IMG/VR virus record: IMGVR_UViG_3300023284_001813
Coordinates: 1-43,981 of that record
Source of the DNA: a virus
Strand: one strand, 5' to 3'
DNA length: 43,981 bases
Below the pieces are notes generated by a model, which saw only the letters and a program-made list of their open reading frames with translations, did no database searches and was not told the DNA's origin. The stretch's first letter is position 1, and each line of letters opens with the position of its first letter. Of this stretch, positions 934 through 43,981 are shown piece after piece. The translations under genes were made by a program, and so were the position numbers.

Positions 934-1080
934 GTTTTCCATGGTGCCCTTTTTTTCTGCGATGGTCCCTGTTTTCCATGGTGCCCCCTTCGTTTTCCAT
1001 GGGGGGGTAGGCGCGACCGGCCCCGTTTTCCACGGTAGCAATTATGTTTTCCATGGGGGGTTCTGTTTTCCATGGGGGGG
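934..1080 (+). repeat. Iteron-like array of GTTTTCCAYGG (six direct copies)
   Basis: Copies begin at 934, 971, 992, 1025, 1046 and 1065. The copy at 1025 reads CACGG, the others CATGG; three run into six or seven G residues. Spacing is irregular (19-37 bases). The inverse complement of the core, GTGGAAAAC, occurs twice more at 1119-1148 inside the DnaA-box repeat. The array may bind a phage initiator or repressor. Confidence 0.85.
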
Positions 1081-1116
1081 TACCGGCCCGATCAGACTTG
1101 TTCACAAGTTATCAAC

Positions 1117-1167
1117 ATGTGGAAAACTTGTGGATAACCCTAAAATGTGGAAAACTTGTGGATAACC
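1117..1167 (+). repeat. Tandem 23-bp repeat with DnaA-box sequences
   Basis: The unit at 1117-1139 recurs exactly at 1145-1167 (28-base period). Each unit contains TGTGGATAA (1129-1137 and 1157-1165), the complement of the consensus DnaA box TTATCCACA. Just upstream, 1101-1115 reads TTCACAAGTTATCAA, a degenerate further box. This is the strongest DnaA-box signal in the window. Confidence 0.8.
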
Positions 1168-3716: not shown

Positions 3717-4835
3717 ATGAGTGCTAACTTCCTTTCTGAACGTGGCGAATTCCGCGGACAACCTGCATGGCATCGGGCCGGTAACGTGTTCGATCTTATG
3801 GCTAAGGTCCTGTTGATCGACGCCGCCACGAAGCATTGGAGTGATATCAAGATCAAGAAACAACCGCTTTTCACTGCGGGCATACCGATTGCGAACGGCA
3901 CAGGTGGATTCGATATTCCACCGTTTCAGATTCCTGGTAGGTTTGCCGTCGTTCGTTTGCCGATTCCCGAAGATCCCAAACTCATGTATTTGGGCGATGT
4001 GGGGAAAGGTTGGGAGACGAAAGATCCGATCTACTACGCAAAGCAACTCAACGACCTTTCGAAAAAGTTTCCGCTCGAGACCTTGGGCACGCTCGGGCTC
4101 GGCGAACGGTGCTTTTTTTCACTACGGGATGAACCCGTGACCGTTGCGGCTTCGAACGGTTTCAAAGATGAACTGTGGAGCCACTACGTTTTCGAATTGT
4201 CATTGGAGCCGGGTCGGTCTCATCGGTGCTTTTCTACACATACCCGAGTCGTATGCGAGAATACGCTTATGGCAGGTTGGGCGAACGCACAGTATAAGAT
4301 GAAGATACCGCACAGCATGGACGCCGAAGAGGGGTACGAGTGGATGATCACAACCGCCGAACACGCGAAAACGGCAAGCGAAGAAGATCGAAAGGTGTAC
4401 GAAAAGTTCATGTCGGTACCGTTCCGCGTCGATTCTCCCGACTTTGATCTATACCTGTCAGATGTATACCCTTTGCCCGCGGTTCCTGCACGCGTCACGC
4501 GCCATAACAACATGAACCCGGATCAACGTGCCAACTTGAGTGACACGCAGAATGAAGCGATCGAAAAAGATGAACGGCGGTTCGTCACTGGTAGCGAACG
4601 CGCAAAGAAGTTGCGTGAAAACGTTCGTGAACTTGCCCATGGTTTCAATGATGACTATGGCGCTGTAGCGAACACGGTTTGGATGGCATACAATGCCACC
4701 ACGGAACTCGCTACACATCGCAAAAAGCAAGGACGCGAGGACGTCGCTGAATCCGTTCTTACTGGTGCCCGCTCCGAAGAGATCCGGAACTCCTACGACT
4801 TGCTCGTTGAACGCTGTGAAATGAGCTTGAACTAA
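3717..4835 (+). CDS. DUF932 phage/plasmid-like protein
   Basis: A 372-residue protein of the DUF932 (phage/plasmid-like, TIGR03299-type) family. Family marks are PAWHRAG near the N-terminus (residues about 18-24), THTRVVCENTLMAGW (about 176-190) and AYNATTELATH (about 322-332), each matching a typical family motif as I remember it. The biochemical function of DUF932 is not established; members are usually found beside phage and plasmid replication or recombination genes. ATG 3717 has CGAGGTACATCAA upstream. A strong terminator follows at 4862-4887, so this gene ends a transcription segment. Confidence 0.85.
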   Translation: MSANFLSERGEFRGQPAWHRAGNVFDLMAKVLLIDAATKHWSDIKIKKQPLFTAGIPIANGTGGFDIPPFQIPGRFAVVRLPIPEDPKLMYLGDVGKGWETKDPIYYAKQLNDLSKKFPLETLGTLGLGERCFFSLRDEPVTVAASNGFKDELWSHYVFELSLEPGRSHRCFSTHTRVVCENTLMAGWANAQYKMKIPHSMDAEEGYEWMITTAEHAKTASEEDRKVYEKFMSVPFRVDSPDFDLYLSDVYPLPAVPARVTRHNNMNPDQRANLSDTQNEAIEKDERRFVTGSERAKKLRENVRELAHGFNDDYGAVANTVWMAYNATTELATHRKKQGREDVAESVLTGARSEEIRNSYDLLVERCEMSLN

Positions 4836-7864: not shown

Positions 7865-7926
7865 TACCGTTCGAAAACGCTCGAATATCGACATATCGTG
7901 CCAATTTATTCGTACTTATGCACCAA

Positions 7927-7999
7927 TTGTCCACAGTACCCGGTTAGTTGTCCACAATGGGGCTGATCTTACCCACATCTTATCAACAAGTTATCAACA
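7927..7999. repeat. Cluster of four DnaA-box-like sequences
   Basis: TTGTCCACA occurs at 7927-7935 and 7948-7956, and TTATCAACA at 7980-7988 and 7991-7999. Each differs by one base from TTATCCACA. All four lie on the same strand in the 214-base gap between 7864 and 8079, which has no gene. This may be a second origin-like or DnaA-regulated site. Confidence 0.65.
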
Positions 8000-8078
8000 A
8001 CTCAGGAAATAGTGGGATCCGAACGGTGTTTACCGCTACCCCCTCCCGAAAAATCTACAATCCTAAGTAGGAAAAAAT

Positions 8079-10496: not shown

Positions 10497-10823
10497 ATGG
10501 AAATAGGAGAAATACTTAAATCCTGGCGTCATGCATTTGGATTAAACCAACGTGATGCGGGAAAACGATTAAGTGTTCATTTTACCTATATAAGCAAGAT
10601 TGAAAACGGAATACTTTCTCCGTCAGTCGATCTTATCGAACGTATGGCCGATGTCTACAATCGATCACGAGAGGATTGTGATTCTGCTTGCATAGCTAAA
10701 AGGCAGCTTCCATCATGGGTAGAGCCTTTAGTGTTATCTAATCCACATGTCTTAAATAATCTACAATTATCATATCGAAGGTGGATGTCTGACCGGAGCA
10801 GCCCCCCCAAAGAATACGCATAA
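10497..10823 (+). CDS. XRE (Cro/CI) family helix-turn-helix regulator
   Basis: A 108-residue protein with a classic N-terminal XRE domain at residues about 5-58: FGLNQRDAGKRLSVHFTYIS is the helix-turn-helix and KIENGILSPSVDLIERMADVY completes the fold. The C-terminal 45 residues are not a known dimerisation domain. The gene is visibly more AT-rich than its neighbours, with codons such as TTA, ATA and AAA, which suggests separate acquisition. It could repress or activate the surrounding genes; no integrase is present, so it need not be a lysogeny repressor. Confidence 0.85.
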   Translation: MEIGEILKSWRHAFGLNQRDAGKRLSVHFTYISKIENGILSPSVDLIERMADVYNRSREDCDSACIAKRQLPSWVEPLVLSNPHVLNNLQLSYRRWMSDRSSPPKEYA

Positions 10824-32207: not shown

Positions 32208-33692
32208 ATGAGTATTAATGCTGACACGTCAGTTGAGGCTCCTAGATCTGTAACTGGCCGTGCTAGGTTTTATAAGAACTACCCACTTACGGTACTCTTG
32301 TGGCTTCGTGTCAATAGCACAGATGGATTTGATGCTTTGACTACGTTAGCGAGCACCAACGGAGGTGATAATGTAATTCTTCGCTCAACGTCTTCTAACA
32401 TACGATGGTCAGCTAGAAACGACGGAGCTGGAGGAGACAACATTGAAGTTGCGTATCCCAATGATGTGTGGTTTTTGGCAAGGGGGGTCATCAGATCAGC
32501 AACGGATAGAGAGCTTAACCTTATAGAAATCGATGGCACGGTGTCTACTGGGACGAGTACTGTAAGTGTTCCTTGGACGTTTGCAAATGATACGATAGAG
32601 CATAATAATCGTGGAAGCGGAACCGATTGGGACATAGACTACGAGCAAAGTGTAATTCTTCTGGATGAATTCCCTTTGTCGGCAGCAAAAGCGATGGCAA
32701 AAGGGCGGCACCCGAAGGATTTCCTGGAATTCAGGAACAGTATTGTTTCATATCAACCGCTGATTAGTGAATACAATCAGAATGGATATGTAGGGCCACC
32801 CATACTCCACACAGGAAGCGTTGTAATAGGAGCAACAAGGCCAAACGTAGCATCCTTCGCCCTGAGTCCCATCTGGCTTCCTGCTACGTTTGATGTTGCT
32901 GCTAATACAGTTGAGACGGGTGCTGTTAGCGCTGCAGTGGCAGGAAGTAAACCCGTAGTTTTAAGAATCCTATCGCTTAATTCTGGTGCTGTTGGTGCTT
33001 CGGTTGCTGGAAGTAACCCCATTGTTCTCAGGATCTTGCCGATCAGCTCCGGGGCAGTTGGGGCGAGCGTTGCAGGTTGTCAAATACTCATAAACCGGGA
33101 TATTTTCTCCGGCGCGATTGGTGCGAGCGTTGCAGGCAGCGAACCCCAGGTTTTACGCGACTTCAACATCAATAGCGGCGCGGTTGGGGCAAGCGTTGCC
33201 AGCAGTGATCTTGTAGTAATACACAAGATTTCCAGTGGTGGAATCGGCGCAAGCGTTGCAGGAAGTGTTCCGGTAGTTCTCAGAATATTAAGTATCGATT
33301 CTAGCGCTATAGGTGGGAGCGTTGCCGGTTGTGAACCATCCGTAATACCCACATCGCTTCAAGTTCCTTCTGGTGCTATCGGTGCGAGCGTTGCGGGTAG
33401 CACGCCGGTTGTGCTACGGATATTCAATATTCAATCCGGATCTGTTGGCGCGAGTCTATCGGGGAGTGAGCTACAGAAAGTCATCAAGTTGAATTCTGGA
33501 TCTGTTGGTGCAAGTGTAGCCGGATCAGCACCCGTAATCCGTACGATTCACAATCTCCTAACGGGGGCTGTTGGTGGATCAGTTGCCGGTGCAAGGCATG
33601 CTGCAGTATTGCCGCCCCACACGGCCGAGATCGGCGCGAGTTATGCCGATAAAACTACCATCGGTTTATTTTCACACGGACACAAGGTATAA
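32208..33692 (+). CDS. Repeat-rich fibre protein with LamG-like head
   Basis: A 494-residue protein. Residues 1-185 look like a LamG/concanavalin sandwich (LTVLLWLRVNS, VWFLARGVI, LNLIEIDGTVS). From about residue 236 to 480 there are 11 or 12 repeats of 20-23 residues built on SGAVGASVAGSxPVVLRI, with variants such as GAIG and AGC. Regular small-residue repeats of this kind form fibrous shafts or beta-solenoids. The order is binding domain first, shaft second, with the end (SHGHKV) carrying histidines. Likely a tail fibre or spike; which end attaches to the virion is unknown. Confidence 0.75.
   Translation: MSINADTSVEAPRSVTGRARFYKNYPLTVLLWLRVNSTDGFDALTTLASTNGGDNVILRSTSSNIRWSARNDGAGGDNIEVAYPNDVWFLARGVIRSATDRELNLIEIDGTVSTGTSTVSVPWTFANDTIEHNNRGSGTDWDIDYEQSVILLDEFPLSAAKAMAKGRHPKDFLEFRNSIVSYQPLISEYNQNGYVGPPILHTGSVVIGATRPNVASFALSPIWLPATFDVAANTVETGAVSAAVAGSKPVVLRILSLNSGAVGASVAGSNPIVLRILPISSGAVGASVAGCQILINRDIFSGAIGASVAGSEPQVLRDFNINSGAVGASVASSDLVVIHKISSGGIGASVAGSVPVVLRILSIDSSAIGGSVAGCEPSVIPTSLQVPSGAIGASVAGSTPVVLRIFNIQSGSVGASLSGSELQKVIKLNSGSVGASVAGSAPVIRTIHNLLTGAVGGSVAGARHAAVLPPHTAEIGASYADKTTIGLFSHGHKV
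32916..33660 (+). repeat. Coding repeat array encoding G-A-S-V-A-G-S units
   Basis: Imperfect DNA repeats of about 60-69 bases, each with a core close to GGTGCGAGCGTTGCAGG(C/A)AG. Codon choice differs between copies, so the array is old or under diversifying pressure and not a recent duplication. Unit number could change by recombination. Confidence 0.8.
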
Positions 33693-37778: not shown

Positions 37779-38012
37779 TCATTCGCTAGCCTCATCGAAT
37801 TGCTCTTGGGCAATCCATATTCGAGCCGTTTGACGCGCTTGATCTAATCGGGTATCAATGCATTCGGTCGGATCGGATTTGTGTTCTCGTGCTTCTTGAC
37901 GTTTGGCTTTTTCAGCCTGGAAGAATACTCTACGTGCGATCGCGCCATGAGTTCCAGTAAGCGCTAGCAAAGCATTCTTGATGTACGGGCCGATGAGTTT
38001 CGGAGCGTTCAT
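37779..38012 (-). CDS. Hypothetical basic helical protein
   Basis: A 77-residue helical protein (MNAPKLIGPY...) overlapping the replication gene end by four bases (ATGA). Rich in Lys, Arg and Ala (FFQAEKAKRQEAREHK). Its coupling to the candidate initiator suggests a helper in replication, as helicase loaders often sit here, but it is much too small for a loader and has no ATPase motif. Confidence 0.62.
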   Translation of the reverse strand: MNAPKLIGPYIKNALLALTGTHGAIARRVFFQAEKAKRQEAREHKSDPTECIDTRLDQARQTARIWIAQEQFDEASE

Positions 38013-39028
38013 ATCGTGCCGTCAATGTGGATGTTTGTAGACTGTTCGACGTATCTCCACCGGGCTTTATCGTCCTTTTCGCCATTGAATTCATAGAATT
38101 TCGTGTCTCCTGTTGTCAATCGCAAGCGTTTTGCGTGGTCGTTCATTTGCCCCCAATACATCCAGGGACCTTTTTTGACCCCGTTCGAATCGTCTTTCGG
38201 GCGCTTTGGTTCGTATTGATAAATTCCCTTTTTGATGTTACCTGCCCACGTTGAAAGGTGCCGTTTCACCCGGTCGGCCGTGATCAATGTCGGGAATGTG
38301 TCGCCCTTGCGTTTGTACATCCATCCCTTCTTGTTCTCCCAATGATCCATGAAATCAAGAGCGGCACTTCTGGCGTCTTGGTTCAGGTTGTTGATTTCGA
38401 AATACCCGAGGAAGTATTGTTCGCAGAACTGAACCGTTACCGGCGCATTTGGGAAGTTTAGCTTTTCGAGTTCAGCCGGATCCGTTGGAGGTAAACTAGA
38501 ATCTTTGGTAGTAGTAGTTTTATTTATTGATATATCTTTATTAAAAACATTACTACGTAATGCAAAAAGGTCGGTAGCATGGTCTTTTGAGCCCGGCTTC
38601 AACACTCCTGCGCTTTTGGCAAGAATAAGTACATTTCGTTCATGATCCATGAGTTCATGATCCATTAACACCGGTTCACTTTCAGGGTAATTATCATCCC
38701 CAGGAACTGCGTTTTCGAGCGATTCTTCGATATCTGGTATATGAACCATTAACTTTAAGGGGCGCTTAGAAATGAACTCTAATAATTCGTGTTCGTGAAG
38801 TTCGAGAACTGAGGTATAAACACTCGGTTTCAGCATCGCTTTTCCATTCGTTCGAACCGCTAATTTACCAATATCCTCAAGCGTAGAAACGCAGATTCCT
38901 TGCTCATTTGCAAGCATGAGAATAGCCGCTAAGATACGAAAAGCCTTATCAGAAAGGGGGAGCGTTAATGCGAATGCGAGGTAAAGGGAGGTTTCGGGGA
39001 ACCTGGAATGATATGTGTTGTATTGCAT
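38009..39028 (-). CDS. Candidate replication initiator / replisome organiser
   Basis: A 339-residue protein. Residues about 14-95 look like a winged helix (LPLSDKAFRILAAILMLANE, then STLEDIGKLAVRTNGKA), as in phage replication proteins of the lambda O / DnaD-like class. A low-complexity linker (INKTTTTKDSSLPPTDP) separates it from a second domain at about 195-275 (FCEQYFLGYFEINNLNQDARSAALDFMDHW). Such proteins bind the origin and recruit host helicase. No helicase, primase or loader is seen, so the host machine is probably used directly. The low-complexity stretch matches an AT-rich DNA segment at about 38500-38560. Confidence 0.72.
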   Translation of the reverse strand: MQYNTYHSRFPETSLYLAFALTLPLSDKAFRILAAILMLANEQGICVSTLEDIGKLAVRTNGKAMLKPSVYTSVLELHEHELLEFISKRPLKLMVHIPDIEESLENAVPGDDNYPESEPVLMDHELMDHERNVLILAKSAGVLKPGSKDHATDLFALRSNVFNKDISINKTTTTKDSSLPPTDPAELEKLNFPNAPVTVQFCEQYFLGYFEINNLNQDARSAALDFMDHWENKKGWMYKRKGDTFPTLITADRVKRHLSTWAGNIKKGIYQYEPKRPKDDSNGVKKGPWMYWGQMNDHAKRLRLTTGDTKFYEFNGEKDDKARWRYVEQSTNIHIDGTI

Positions 39029-39141: not shown

Positions 39142-39486
39142 TTATTCGGAAAGTTCACGCCCTATCCAATCCGGGAAATCTGCAATCTCACATCCATCGA
39201 TGAGAGTCCATATGTTTTCCACGGTGGCATACCAGATTCCGTTCAATTCGAAGCCTGAATACGCGAACGGCACCGGATCTTCATCGTTGTAGTGCCGCCA
39301 AGCAACCCGATTTACAGCGATCAAGTTCAAGCTTTTACCTTGGTATGGAATCGTTATCTCTTGCCGCATCGTAACCGCGGGCAATTTCAATTCCAGATAT
39401 CGCGGCCGGTCCGGGTGATCCGGATCTGAAAAGGCAAGTTTGATAACCCCGTTTTCCACCCGTAGGGCTAGAAGTACGGCGTTCAT
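39142..39486 (-). CDS. Hypothetical beta-rich protein
   Basis: A 114-residue protein overlapping the exonuclease gene by four bases. Beta-rich (VLLALRVENGVIKLAF, then LIAVNRVAWRHYND) with an acidic C-terminus. It includes the DNA motif GTTTTCCAC twice on the opposite strand (39214 and 39451), the same core as in the control region. No family recognised. Confidence 0.63.
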   Translation of the reverse strand: MNAVLLALRVENGVIKLAFSDPDHPDRPRYLELKLPAVTMRQEITIPYQGKSLNLIAVNRVAWRHYNDEDPVPFAYSGFELNGIWYATVENIWTLIDGCEIADFPDWIGRELSE

Positions 39487-40579: not shown

Positions 40580-41923
40580 TTAGAATGGAGATTCGCTTTC
40601 CGAGTCCGTTGCGGCCGTTTGGGGTTCGCTCTTTTTCTTCAGAGATTCGTTGTAGTTCTTGGCCGCGGCATCAACTTCCTTCGTGCCGCTCAATTCTACA
40701 TTGTTTTGGAAGCAAAATGCGAGGAATGACCGTACGAATGCAAGATCGGTGCCCGAGCGGTTGAAACGTTGGTTTATGCGCTTTAGAATACCCGTGAGTT
40801 TCTTGCGATGATTACTCGTAACGACAGACATTGAAGTGGGAGCGGTGCCCAATACCAACTTGACAAAGAATGTCATTTCGTCTTTGGTCACAAAGAAGTG
40901 TTGCATCGAATCCATGAAGAAATCCTCATCCGTCGAAATGGATTCGCCGATCACGAGGACTTCTTCTTCTCCTTCCGTGGCTTCGTTTTCCACTAGGGGG
41001 GTATCGGCTTCGTTTTCCACGGGGGGTTTGTTGTACGATTCGGAGTCGGCTTCTTCATCGGCCCAATCGTACTTGGGTTCTACGTCTGTAATTTCCCCGC
41101 TATCTTTGTTGACTTTCTCCTTCCTGGCCGGGAGAAGCTTCTTGTTCAACTGTTCGAGTTGATCGGCATCTTCAGAGCCCGTATCAAGATCGAACTCCCG
41201 GTTTGCGTGCTCGAGACTTTGCTGCAACATGCCGTAGGGCACATTCAGCCATTTCACCGTACGCCGAAACGCGGCTTTTTTGTGCATCTCTTCGACCCAA
41301 TTGCGATAGGCCGGGGAATCTTTCGATTTGGCACTTGCCCGGATCTTATTGAGTTCATCGATCGAAAGGTAATCGAAGATGTATTCGCCATTGTTTAGCT
41401 TGATCACGCAGTATGCTCCGATCACTTCGCCCCGGCTATCCCCTTTTGAACGTGGCACATATTCTTCATGCATGATATGAGGATCCATGCCCCGGCGAAT
41501 TGAAAACGAGTCCTTTTCGTGGACTATAGCTGATTGAATCCTTGCCACAGCATCCGTACCGTATGCTAATTTCACGAGTCCGGGATAGCCGGGAATGAGT
41601 GTTGCTTCGAGCTTGAATCCTTCATCCGTCTTGTTGTTGAAAGGAATGATGTATGCCTCACCCCGGGCTTTTCCTACGATCAAGCCAAGTTCGCATGCTG
41701 TGATGCATGCCTGAATCATGGAGTTTTGAGTACACCCCATGATCTTTGGAATCTCGATGACAGAGTTTCGAACGTTGAGCTTGAACCGCTCAAAGTCCAG
41801 GTTTTCAGGCAACAGCGGTTCGAGCCGGTCCCGGCATGATTCGAGCAAAGCCGCGAGCCTGCCCGGTGTTTTGATCGGCGCATAAGGCTCGACTTTGAAT
41901 TCGTTGGTTTTCGTATCAGACAT
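40580..41923 (-). CDS. recT: RecT-family single-strand annealing protein
   Basis: A 447-residue RecT protein. It anneals complementary single strands during recombination. Family features in residues about 25-260 include an N-terminal helix with LPENLDFERFK, ITACELGLIVGKARGEAYIIPF, LIPGYPGLVKLAY, a basic EMHKKAAFRRTVKW and YGMLQQSLEHA. The protein is longer than E. coli RecT (about 270 residues): an acidic linker with repeated VENEA and a further helical domain follow, ending SESESPF, similar to the SSB tip. ATG 41923 is preferred to an upstream TTG. The exonuclease partner lies just upstream. Confidence 0.93.
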   Translation of the reverse strand: MSDTKTNEFKVEPYAPIKTPGRLAALLESCRDRLEPLLPENLDFERFKLNVRNSVIEIPKIMGCTQNSMIQACITACELGLIVGKARGEAYIIPFNNKTDEGFKLEATLIPGYPGLVKLAYGTDAVARIQSAIVHEKDSFSIRRGMDPHIMHEEYVPRSKGDSRGEVIGAYCVIKLNNGEYIFDYLSIDELNKIRASAKSKDSPAYRNWVEEMHKKAAFRRTVKWLNVPYGMLQQSLEHANREFDLDTGSEDADQLEQLNKKLLPARKEKVNKDSGEITDVEPKYDWADEEADSESYNKPPVENEADTPLVENEATEGEEEVLVIGESISTDEDFFMDSMQHFFVTKDEMTFFVKLVLGTAPTSMSVVTSNHRKKLTGILKRINQRFNRSGTDLAFVRSFLAFCFQNNVELSGTKEVDAAAKNYNESLKKKSEPQTAATDSESESPF

Positions 41924-41954
41924 AGCTATATACAACTGAGGTTAAAGTGATTGA

Positions 41955-43661: not shown

Positions 43662-43918
43662 GGCTTGCCCCCGTGTACGAGTAAGTCGGGCTCCCGCCCA
43701 TAAAATGCTCGCAAAGCGCGAATGTAGCCGTCTTGATGAATCAGCGAGAGGAATTCTAAAACGAGCCTTTTGCATTCGTCGTCACCGTCTAGAACCACGT
43801 CGCTCCATCCGGGAGGAATCAGCAATTCCTCTTCAGTGTCTAGGATCATGAAGACAAGATCTTGCCGTTCGTTCAGGTAGATCTGATAGAGTTGATCCTG
43901 AATGATTATGTTGTCCAT
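43658..43918 (-). CDS. Hypothetical protein spanning the contig join
   Basis: An 86-residue acidic protein (MDNIIIQDQL...), intact only at this end; its first 27 codons are repeated at 1-81. AACGAGGTACCCATT lies before the start, the same GAGGTAC context used by early rightward genes. The C-terminus overlaps the next start by four bases. No domain recognised. Confidence 0.65.
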   Translation of the reverse strand: MDNIIIQDQLYQIYLNERQDLVFMILDTEEELLIPPGWSDVVLDGDDECKRLVLEFLSLIHQDGYIRALRAFYGREPDLLVHGGKP

Positions 43919-43981
43919 AATGGGTACCTCGTTAGTCTTGCTCCCTGTCGGGCGTGTAGAATGTTGCGACAGGAAACGGTG
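43838..43981. repeat. Terminal direct repeat, right copy
   Basis: Exact copy of bases 1-144. It holds the first 27 codons of the 86-residue leftward gene (43658-43918) and, at 43932-43981, the last codons of the gene that is complete at 95-352. Annotating both ends separately would count these two genes twice. Confidence 0.97.

Follow-up and report, generated by a model that had tools for sequence, protein, structure and literature searches.

Six short direct repeats abut a group of DnaA-type boxes in the gap between two divergent gene blocks of an uncultured phage, raising the question of whether this locus is a compact replication origin, as originally predicted from the sequence, or a region that controls the genes to either side. 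The window, the 43,981 nt of IMG/VR record IMGVR_UViG_3300023284_001813, is a complete circular virus record in which bases 1–144 are identical to bases 43838–43981, giving a unit of 43,837 bp. Because these 144-bp ends are identical, the genome is circular or terminally redundant, with the leftward operon running across the ends of the window. A rightward block (~1.2–34.5 kb) contains portal, capsid, and tail genes as well as a terminase-like gene at 12.1 kb, whose product is 25–27% identical to annotated terminases. The leftward block runs from 44 to 34.8 kb and continues over the junction to position 682; it encodes a DUF3799-type exonuclease, RecT, a DnaQ-like exonuclease, proteins of 114, 339, and 77 aa, a resolvase-like nuclease, and a C5 methyltransferase. 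Among the scanned proteins of the phage, none was recognized as a polymerase, helicase, or primase. Searches of IMG/VR with the 339-aa protein, DUF932, and the major capsid protein as queries and with RecT and capsid alignments did not recover close relatives, nor did tblastn and blastn searches of INPHARED and PLSDB. The best relatives found have a RecT that is 38% identical and a capsid protein that is 41–42% identical, and the region between the divergent blocks was present in none of them.

That region (683–1188) spans ~500 bp of non-coding DNA on the open reading frame map, the frames that overlap it having no coding signal. It is flanked by the start of the leftward operon gene at 682 and by a GTG at 1189 that, judging from the sequence, is the probable start of the rightward operon. 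Within it, we observed exact copies of GTTTTCCAYGG at 934, 971, 992, 1025, 1046, and 1065 (span 934–1075, with spacings of 37, 21, 33, 21, and 19), all six being direct + strand repeats in the positions and the single orientation originally described. Sites 1 (934–944), 2 (971–981), 3 (992–1002), 5 (1046–1056), and 6 (1065–1075) read GTTTTCCATGG, with the flanks TGCCC, TGCCCCC, GGGGG, GGGG, and GGGGG, respectively; site 4 (1025–1035) reads GTTTTCCACGG, the CACGG form, and differs from a DnaA box at a single base. Across 200 order-3 Markov genomes, an identical 10-mer occurred at most four times per 200 bp on one strand, placing the array beyond chance. A coding explanation for the array was ruled out by the codon signal of the overlapping frames (log-ratio of –0.04 to 0.02 vs. 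a gene mean of 0.22) and by spacings that break the reading frame.

Next to the array is the 23-bp unit ATGTGGAAAACTTGTGGATAACC (TGTGGAAAA-CT-TGTGGATAA), which is present on the – strand in two identical copies (1117–1139 and 1145–1167), bearing out the earlier description of a tandem repeat with DnaA boxes. Since the units are 28 bp apart, a 5-bp spacer separates them. Each unit consists of two DnaA-type boxes 11 bp apart, TTTTCCACA (1118–1126) and TTATCCACA (1129–1137) in the first unit and the boxes at 1146–1154 and 1157–1165 in the second. Two weaker DnaA-type boxes, also 11 bp apart, had been missed: TTGTTCACA at 1098, the weaker one, and TTATCAACA at 1109 (together 1098–1117) are on the + strand, opposite in orientation to the 23-bp units. 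The DnaA boxes and the array form adjacent blocks, contrary to the suggestion that they are interleaved. When boxes with no more than one mismatch from TTATCCACA were counted, five fell at 1109–1165 and another five at 7927–7999, compared to a simulated maximum of two per 100 bp, and in a set of 111 other phage loci retrieved by similarity of RecT or capsid, not one had at least four such boxes in 120 bp.

The second DnaA-type cluster, which was likewise not part of the original prediction, occupies a non-coding gap (7865–8078) and comprises five + strand boxes in a single orientation: TTGTCCACA at 7927 and 7948, TTACCCACA at 7969, and TTATCAACA at 7980 and 7991. The steps between them are 21, 21, 11, and 11, and their helical phasing is significant (p = 0.0004). 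Third-position GC skew steps from –0.085 to +0.171 at this cluster within one gene direction, which may be an origin signal or may reflect module mosaicism. A promoter/terminator scan of the 7.9-kb region did not rise above background.

Two further exact copies of the array site, also overlooked earlier, are located in coding DNA, and both belong to the leftward replication operon. One is GTTTTCCACGG at 39214–39224 (+ strand), in the gene for the 114-aa protein. The other, GTTTTCCACGG with a GGGG flank at 41012–41022 (+ strand), encodes PVENEA in a linker of recT and is identical to array site 3 at 18 of 19 positions, flanks included. A degenerate site, GTTTTCCACTAGGGG (40985–40999, + strand), lies in the same linker, and both recT sites are held by the C-terminal extension of the RecT-like annealing protein (40580–41935, – strand). 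When synonymous codons were redrawn in 300 trials, 0.037 copies were expected, and at least two copies appeared in 0.3% of trials (P = 0.003). All eight exact copies, six between the operons and two inside the leftward operon, are on the + strand and so have one orientation relative to leftward transcription, although codon usage may partly account for the orientation of the sites in coding DNA. The recT linker (40979–41026) encodes PVENEA repeats, and copies of the intergenic site are carried in the DNA for them; the initiator-like gene of another locus (L010, see below) has a comparable VEN-encoding repeat.

An array and a DnaA cluster that both exceed simulation, their placement in a divergent non-coding gap, and the co-oriented recurrence of the array site within an operon argue for a control region. 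We therefore favor, though tentatively and at somewhat less than even confidence, the reading that 683–1188 is a control region with multiple sites for host DnaA and a DNA-binding protein of the phage, acting mainly on early and replication transcription. The region would be common to the two divergent early operons. Host DnaA would bind the cluster at 1098–1165, and a second sequence-specific protein, probably encoded by the phage, would bind the asymmetric GTTTTCCAYGG array and the extra copies in the leftward replication operon. The main effect of this second protein would most likely be on transcription of the recombination/replication operon, with the array sites serving as operators and the sites inside the operon being stoperator-like, while DnaA would couple transcription of the operon to the replication state of the host. 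Origin opening would more likely take place in the gene for the 339-aa initiator-like protein. Should DnaA and a phage protein share the region, the phage would be a simple and testable example of a viral replication operon tied to the replication initiator of the host.

The repressor sites of Cluster A mycobacteriophages are asymmetric and follow the direction of transcription, and operators at promoters are among them (PMC6550527). The lambda origin is activated by transcription, which DnaA stimulates (PMC3985674 and its references). As in the Cluster A phages L5 and Bxb1, a short asymmetric site occurs here in one orientation relative to transcription, both within operons and in an early control region. 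The mycobacteriophages, however, have 20–30 stoperator sites genome-wide, whereas we found six clustered and two dispersed sites, in the control region and left operon only. The site sequence is also unrelated to that of L5 and Bxb1, no linked repressor was identified here, and a DnaA cluster adjoins the array here. Several observations weigh against a control region: the promoter/terminator scan found three promoter-like sites vs. 2.5 expected, which is not above background; no repressor gene adjoins the array; the dispersed sites are few; and the phasing of five of the copies is compatible with iterons. The only clear HTH_3 protein of the phage is encoded at 10497–10823, away from the array.

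We also looked at comparable elements in other phages. A search of IMG/VR with a GTTTTCCAYGG pair pattern returned 20 contigs, mostly representing one coding sequence, and a three-copy TTTTCCAYGG pattern in 84,980 genomes matched mostly coding or tandem repeats. In Roseobacter phage CRP-6, CTCCGATGGAAAA repeats are located in a divergent gap just upstream of a primase and polymerase block, and the final copy occupies the whole 17-bp spacer of a promoter-like TTGACC-N17-TAGAGT sequence (read by eye). The presence of such an array in a divergent gap with a promoter-like site supports the control-region reading. CRP-811 has two copies of the CRP-6 array core. In L010, TTTTCCACGG-type repeats lie inside a gene that has an initiator-like layout and no Pfam match, where they encode STVENGESTVEN; in L019 and L106 the array is beside an integrase-like gene, and in L041 and L115 tandem arrays are downstream of primase-helicase genes. 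All of these arrays resemble the one described here in having a TTTTCCA core followed by TCGG, TGG, or CGG, often a G-rich flank, steps of 19–23 bp, and a location usually in or near replication modules. The core in CRP-6 and CRP-811 is ATCGG, unlike here, and the phages with such arrays are otherwise unrelated. Because the cores are not identical, neither common descent nor a common binder of the arrays is established. The existence of comparable motifs in several other phages argues against the proposal that the array represents a new iteron type, and it suggests that TTTTCCAYGG-type arrays near the replication modules of unrelated phages are a recurring element, for which we found no name in the literature searched. 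In phages that are uncultured, such arrays could help locate origins or early control regions.

The divergent gap of CRP-6 (L241, 44333–44927) contains TTGCARRAATGTCAC at 16-bp steps in addition to CTCCGATGGAAAA at 21–23-bp steps, and in CRP-811 (L242) a non-coding segment at 4363–4548, beside a RepA-family helicase gene, is rich in ACTACAAA repeats. A dyad repeat, TTTTCCAYGG-YGTGGAAAA, is common in Verrucomicrobia/Kiritimatiellae MAGs and was set aside as differing in layout; many such dyads, apparently intergenic, were seen in Verrucomicrobia, Kiritimatiellae, and Lentisphaerae MAGs (L047, L050, L053, L067, L070, L074, L087, L109, and similar loci).

No DnaA cluster was found beside the arrays of CRP-6, CRP-811, L010, L019/L106, L041, or L115. 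A direct search for the paired box identified other phages with three to nine DnaA boxes in 120 bp, and DnaA-box clusters are thus a known kind of feature. The clusters of five such phages (L029, L031, L037, L030, and L038) contain four to nine boxes per 120 bp and have a TGTGGAAAACTTGTGGATAAC pair in common with the phage studied here but, unlike here, no neighboring array, only single scattered matches to GTTTTCCAYGG. The cluster in L029/L039 immediately precedes a small block of genes leading to a terminase-like ATPase (by eye), which is not a recognized replication module. Since the array and the DnaA cluster are found separately elsewhere, the side-by-side arrangement seen here is not a general one.

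The 339-aa initiator-like protein (38009–39028, – strand) had been named as the best candidate to bind the array. We found nothing that links it to the array: its own gene lacks an array site, and the extra sites are in other genes of the operon. The protein has a winged-helix-like N-terminal region and an acidic/Asn-Thr linker but could not be assigned to a family; an HTH_36 match to the N-terminal piece was below the cut-off (E = 0.039), searches of PHROG, NCBIfam, and PDB gave no match, and an AlphaFold model of the protein alone was unusable (mean pLDDT of 33). Within its gene is a candidate unwinding element (38509–38568, – strand; 82% A+T over 60 bp), which has the lowest stability of any DNA in the genome and the highest A+T content at lengths of 40, 60, and 100 bp. 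This segment sits in the low-complexity linker, downstream of the winged-helix-like N-terminus. Lambdoid origins have iterons and a 40-bp A+T-rich stretch inside the O gene (PMC5043065, PMC7466680), an anatomy that the unstable DNA in the 339-aa gene matches. Upstream of the A+T-rich segment are two direct copies of ATGGATCATGAAC, 15 bp apart (38636–38666, – strand; read by eye), which are weak candidates for iterons; a lambda-type origin calls for at least four iterons beside the A+T-rich element. Thus, as in origins of the lambda-O and SPP1-oriL type, the least stable DNA of the genome is in the linker of an initiator-like gene, whereas only two weak repeats accompany it and the array is elsewhere.

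The leading alternative to a control region is that an initiator occupies the array and DnaA opens nearby DNA, making the locus an iteron-plasmid-type origin, as in P1 oriR, or a second origin, as in SPP1 oriR. We regard this as a real possibility, albeit a doubtful one. Iteron plasmid origins classically pair direct repeats with neighboring DnaA boxes (PMC5043065), and the likeness to P1 oriR, RK2, R6K, and pSC101 extends to the non-coding setting; here, however, the spacing is irregular, the core is 11 bp (theirs are ~17–22 bp), no A+T-rich element is adjacent, and the initiator-like gene is ~6 kb away round the circle. Sites 2–6 fall within ~0.15 turn of one helical face (p ~0.01, for five sites chosen post hoc), but site 1 is out of phase with them, and for all six sites p = 0.13. 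The fifth least stable 50-mer of the genome, the nearest strong candidate for unwinding, starts at 1550, ~390 bp away, but no strongly unstable DNA adjoins the array as it would in an iteron-type origin, the least stable 50-mer nearby (starting at 1106) being only at about the 2nd percentile. The TTTTCCACGG-type repeats within the initiator-like gene of L010 and the repeats beside the primase-helicase genes of L041 and L115 also favor an origin, as does a gene set (exonuclease, RecT, initiator-like protein, small protein, and resolvase) that resembles that of SPP1, which has both oriL and oriR (PMC5615212). Against these points, the least stable 50-mer of the genome is inside the initiator-like gene, where no copy of the array site occurs, and the boxes of the 7.9-kb DnaA-type cluster keep better helical phase and sit at the GC-skew step. 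Together, these results weaken the proposal of a compact origin at the array. By analogy with SPP1, the control-region and origin readings may both be true.

We consider it unlikely that the array is bound by a phage initiator or regulator with DnaA-box-like specificity (compare GTTTTCCAYGG with TTTTCCACA) that would compete or cooperate with DnaA at the true boxes the array abuts. If it were, this tailed phage would have a replication system in three parts governed by DnaA: that locus, the DnaA cluster at 7.9 kb, and the unwinding element within the initiator-like gene. It is improbable that the array sites are themselves low-affinity DnaA sites, namely TTTTCCACA altered at the last one or two bases, and that 934–1165 is a single DnaA locus for titration, a datA/DARS-like function, or an origin. 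The CACGG copies are indeed one mismatch from TTTTCCACA, and the original prediction was correct in noting a core common to the array and the DnaA-box unit, since the string GTTTTCCA occurs exactly in both. Nevertheless, the GG after Y is constant in eight of eight exact copies, beyond what DnaA requires, the G common to both is accounted for by the AG that usually links paired boxes, and the arrays of CRP-6, L010, L041, and L115 are away from DnaA clusters. Equally poorly placed is a repeat family without a binding function, such as a slippage product or spreading repeat: the G-run and TGCCC flanks suggest that longer blocks were copied (48-bp and 19-bp families), but it is the 11-bp core alone that stays constant, flanks and spacing both being variable, and two left-operon genes contain further matches, as expected for selected binding sites. 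The region has no RNA or single-strand DNA fold beyond shuffles (z = 0.97 and 0.07) and no Rfam match.

Two other repeats were observed. Near the end of the rightward block, the 18-bp repeat CGGGCTCTTTTTGTATAT is present in three copies (34203, 34281, and 34459), two of them identical, which may be promoter or regulatory sites. The gene for a 494-aa protein (32208–33692), perhaps a tail fiber, contains tandem 60–69-bp glycine-rich coding repeats at 32981–33523.
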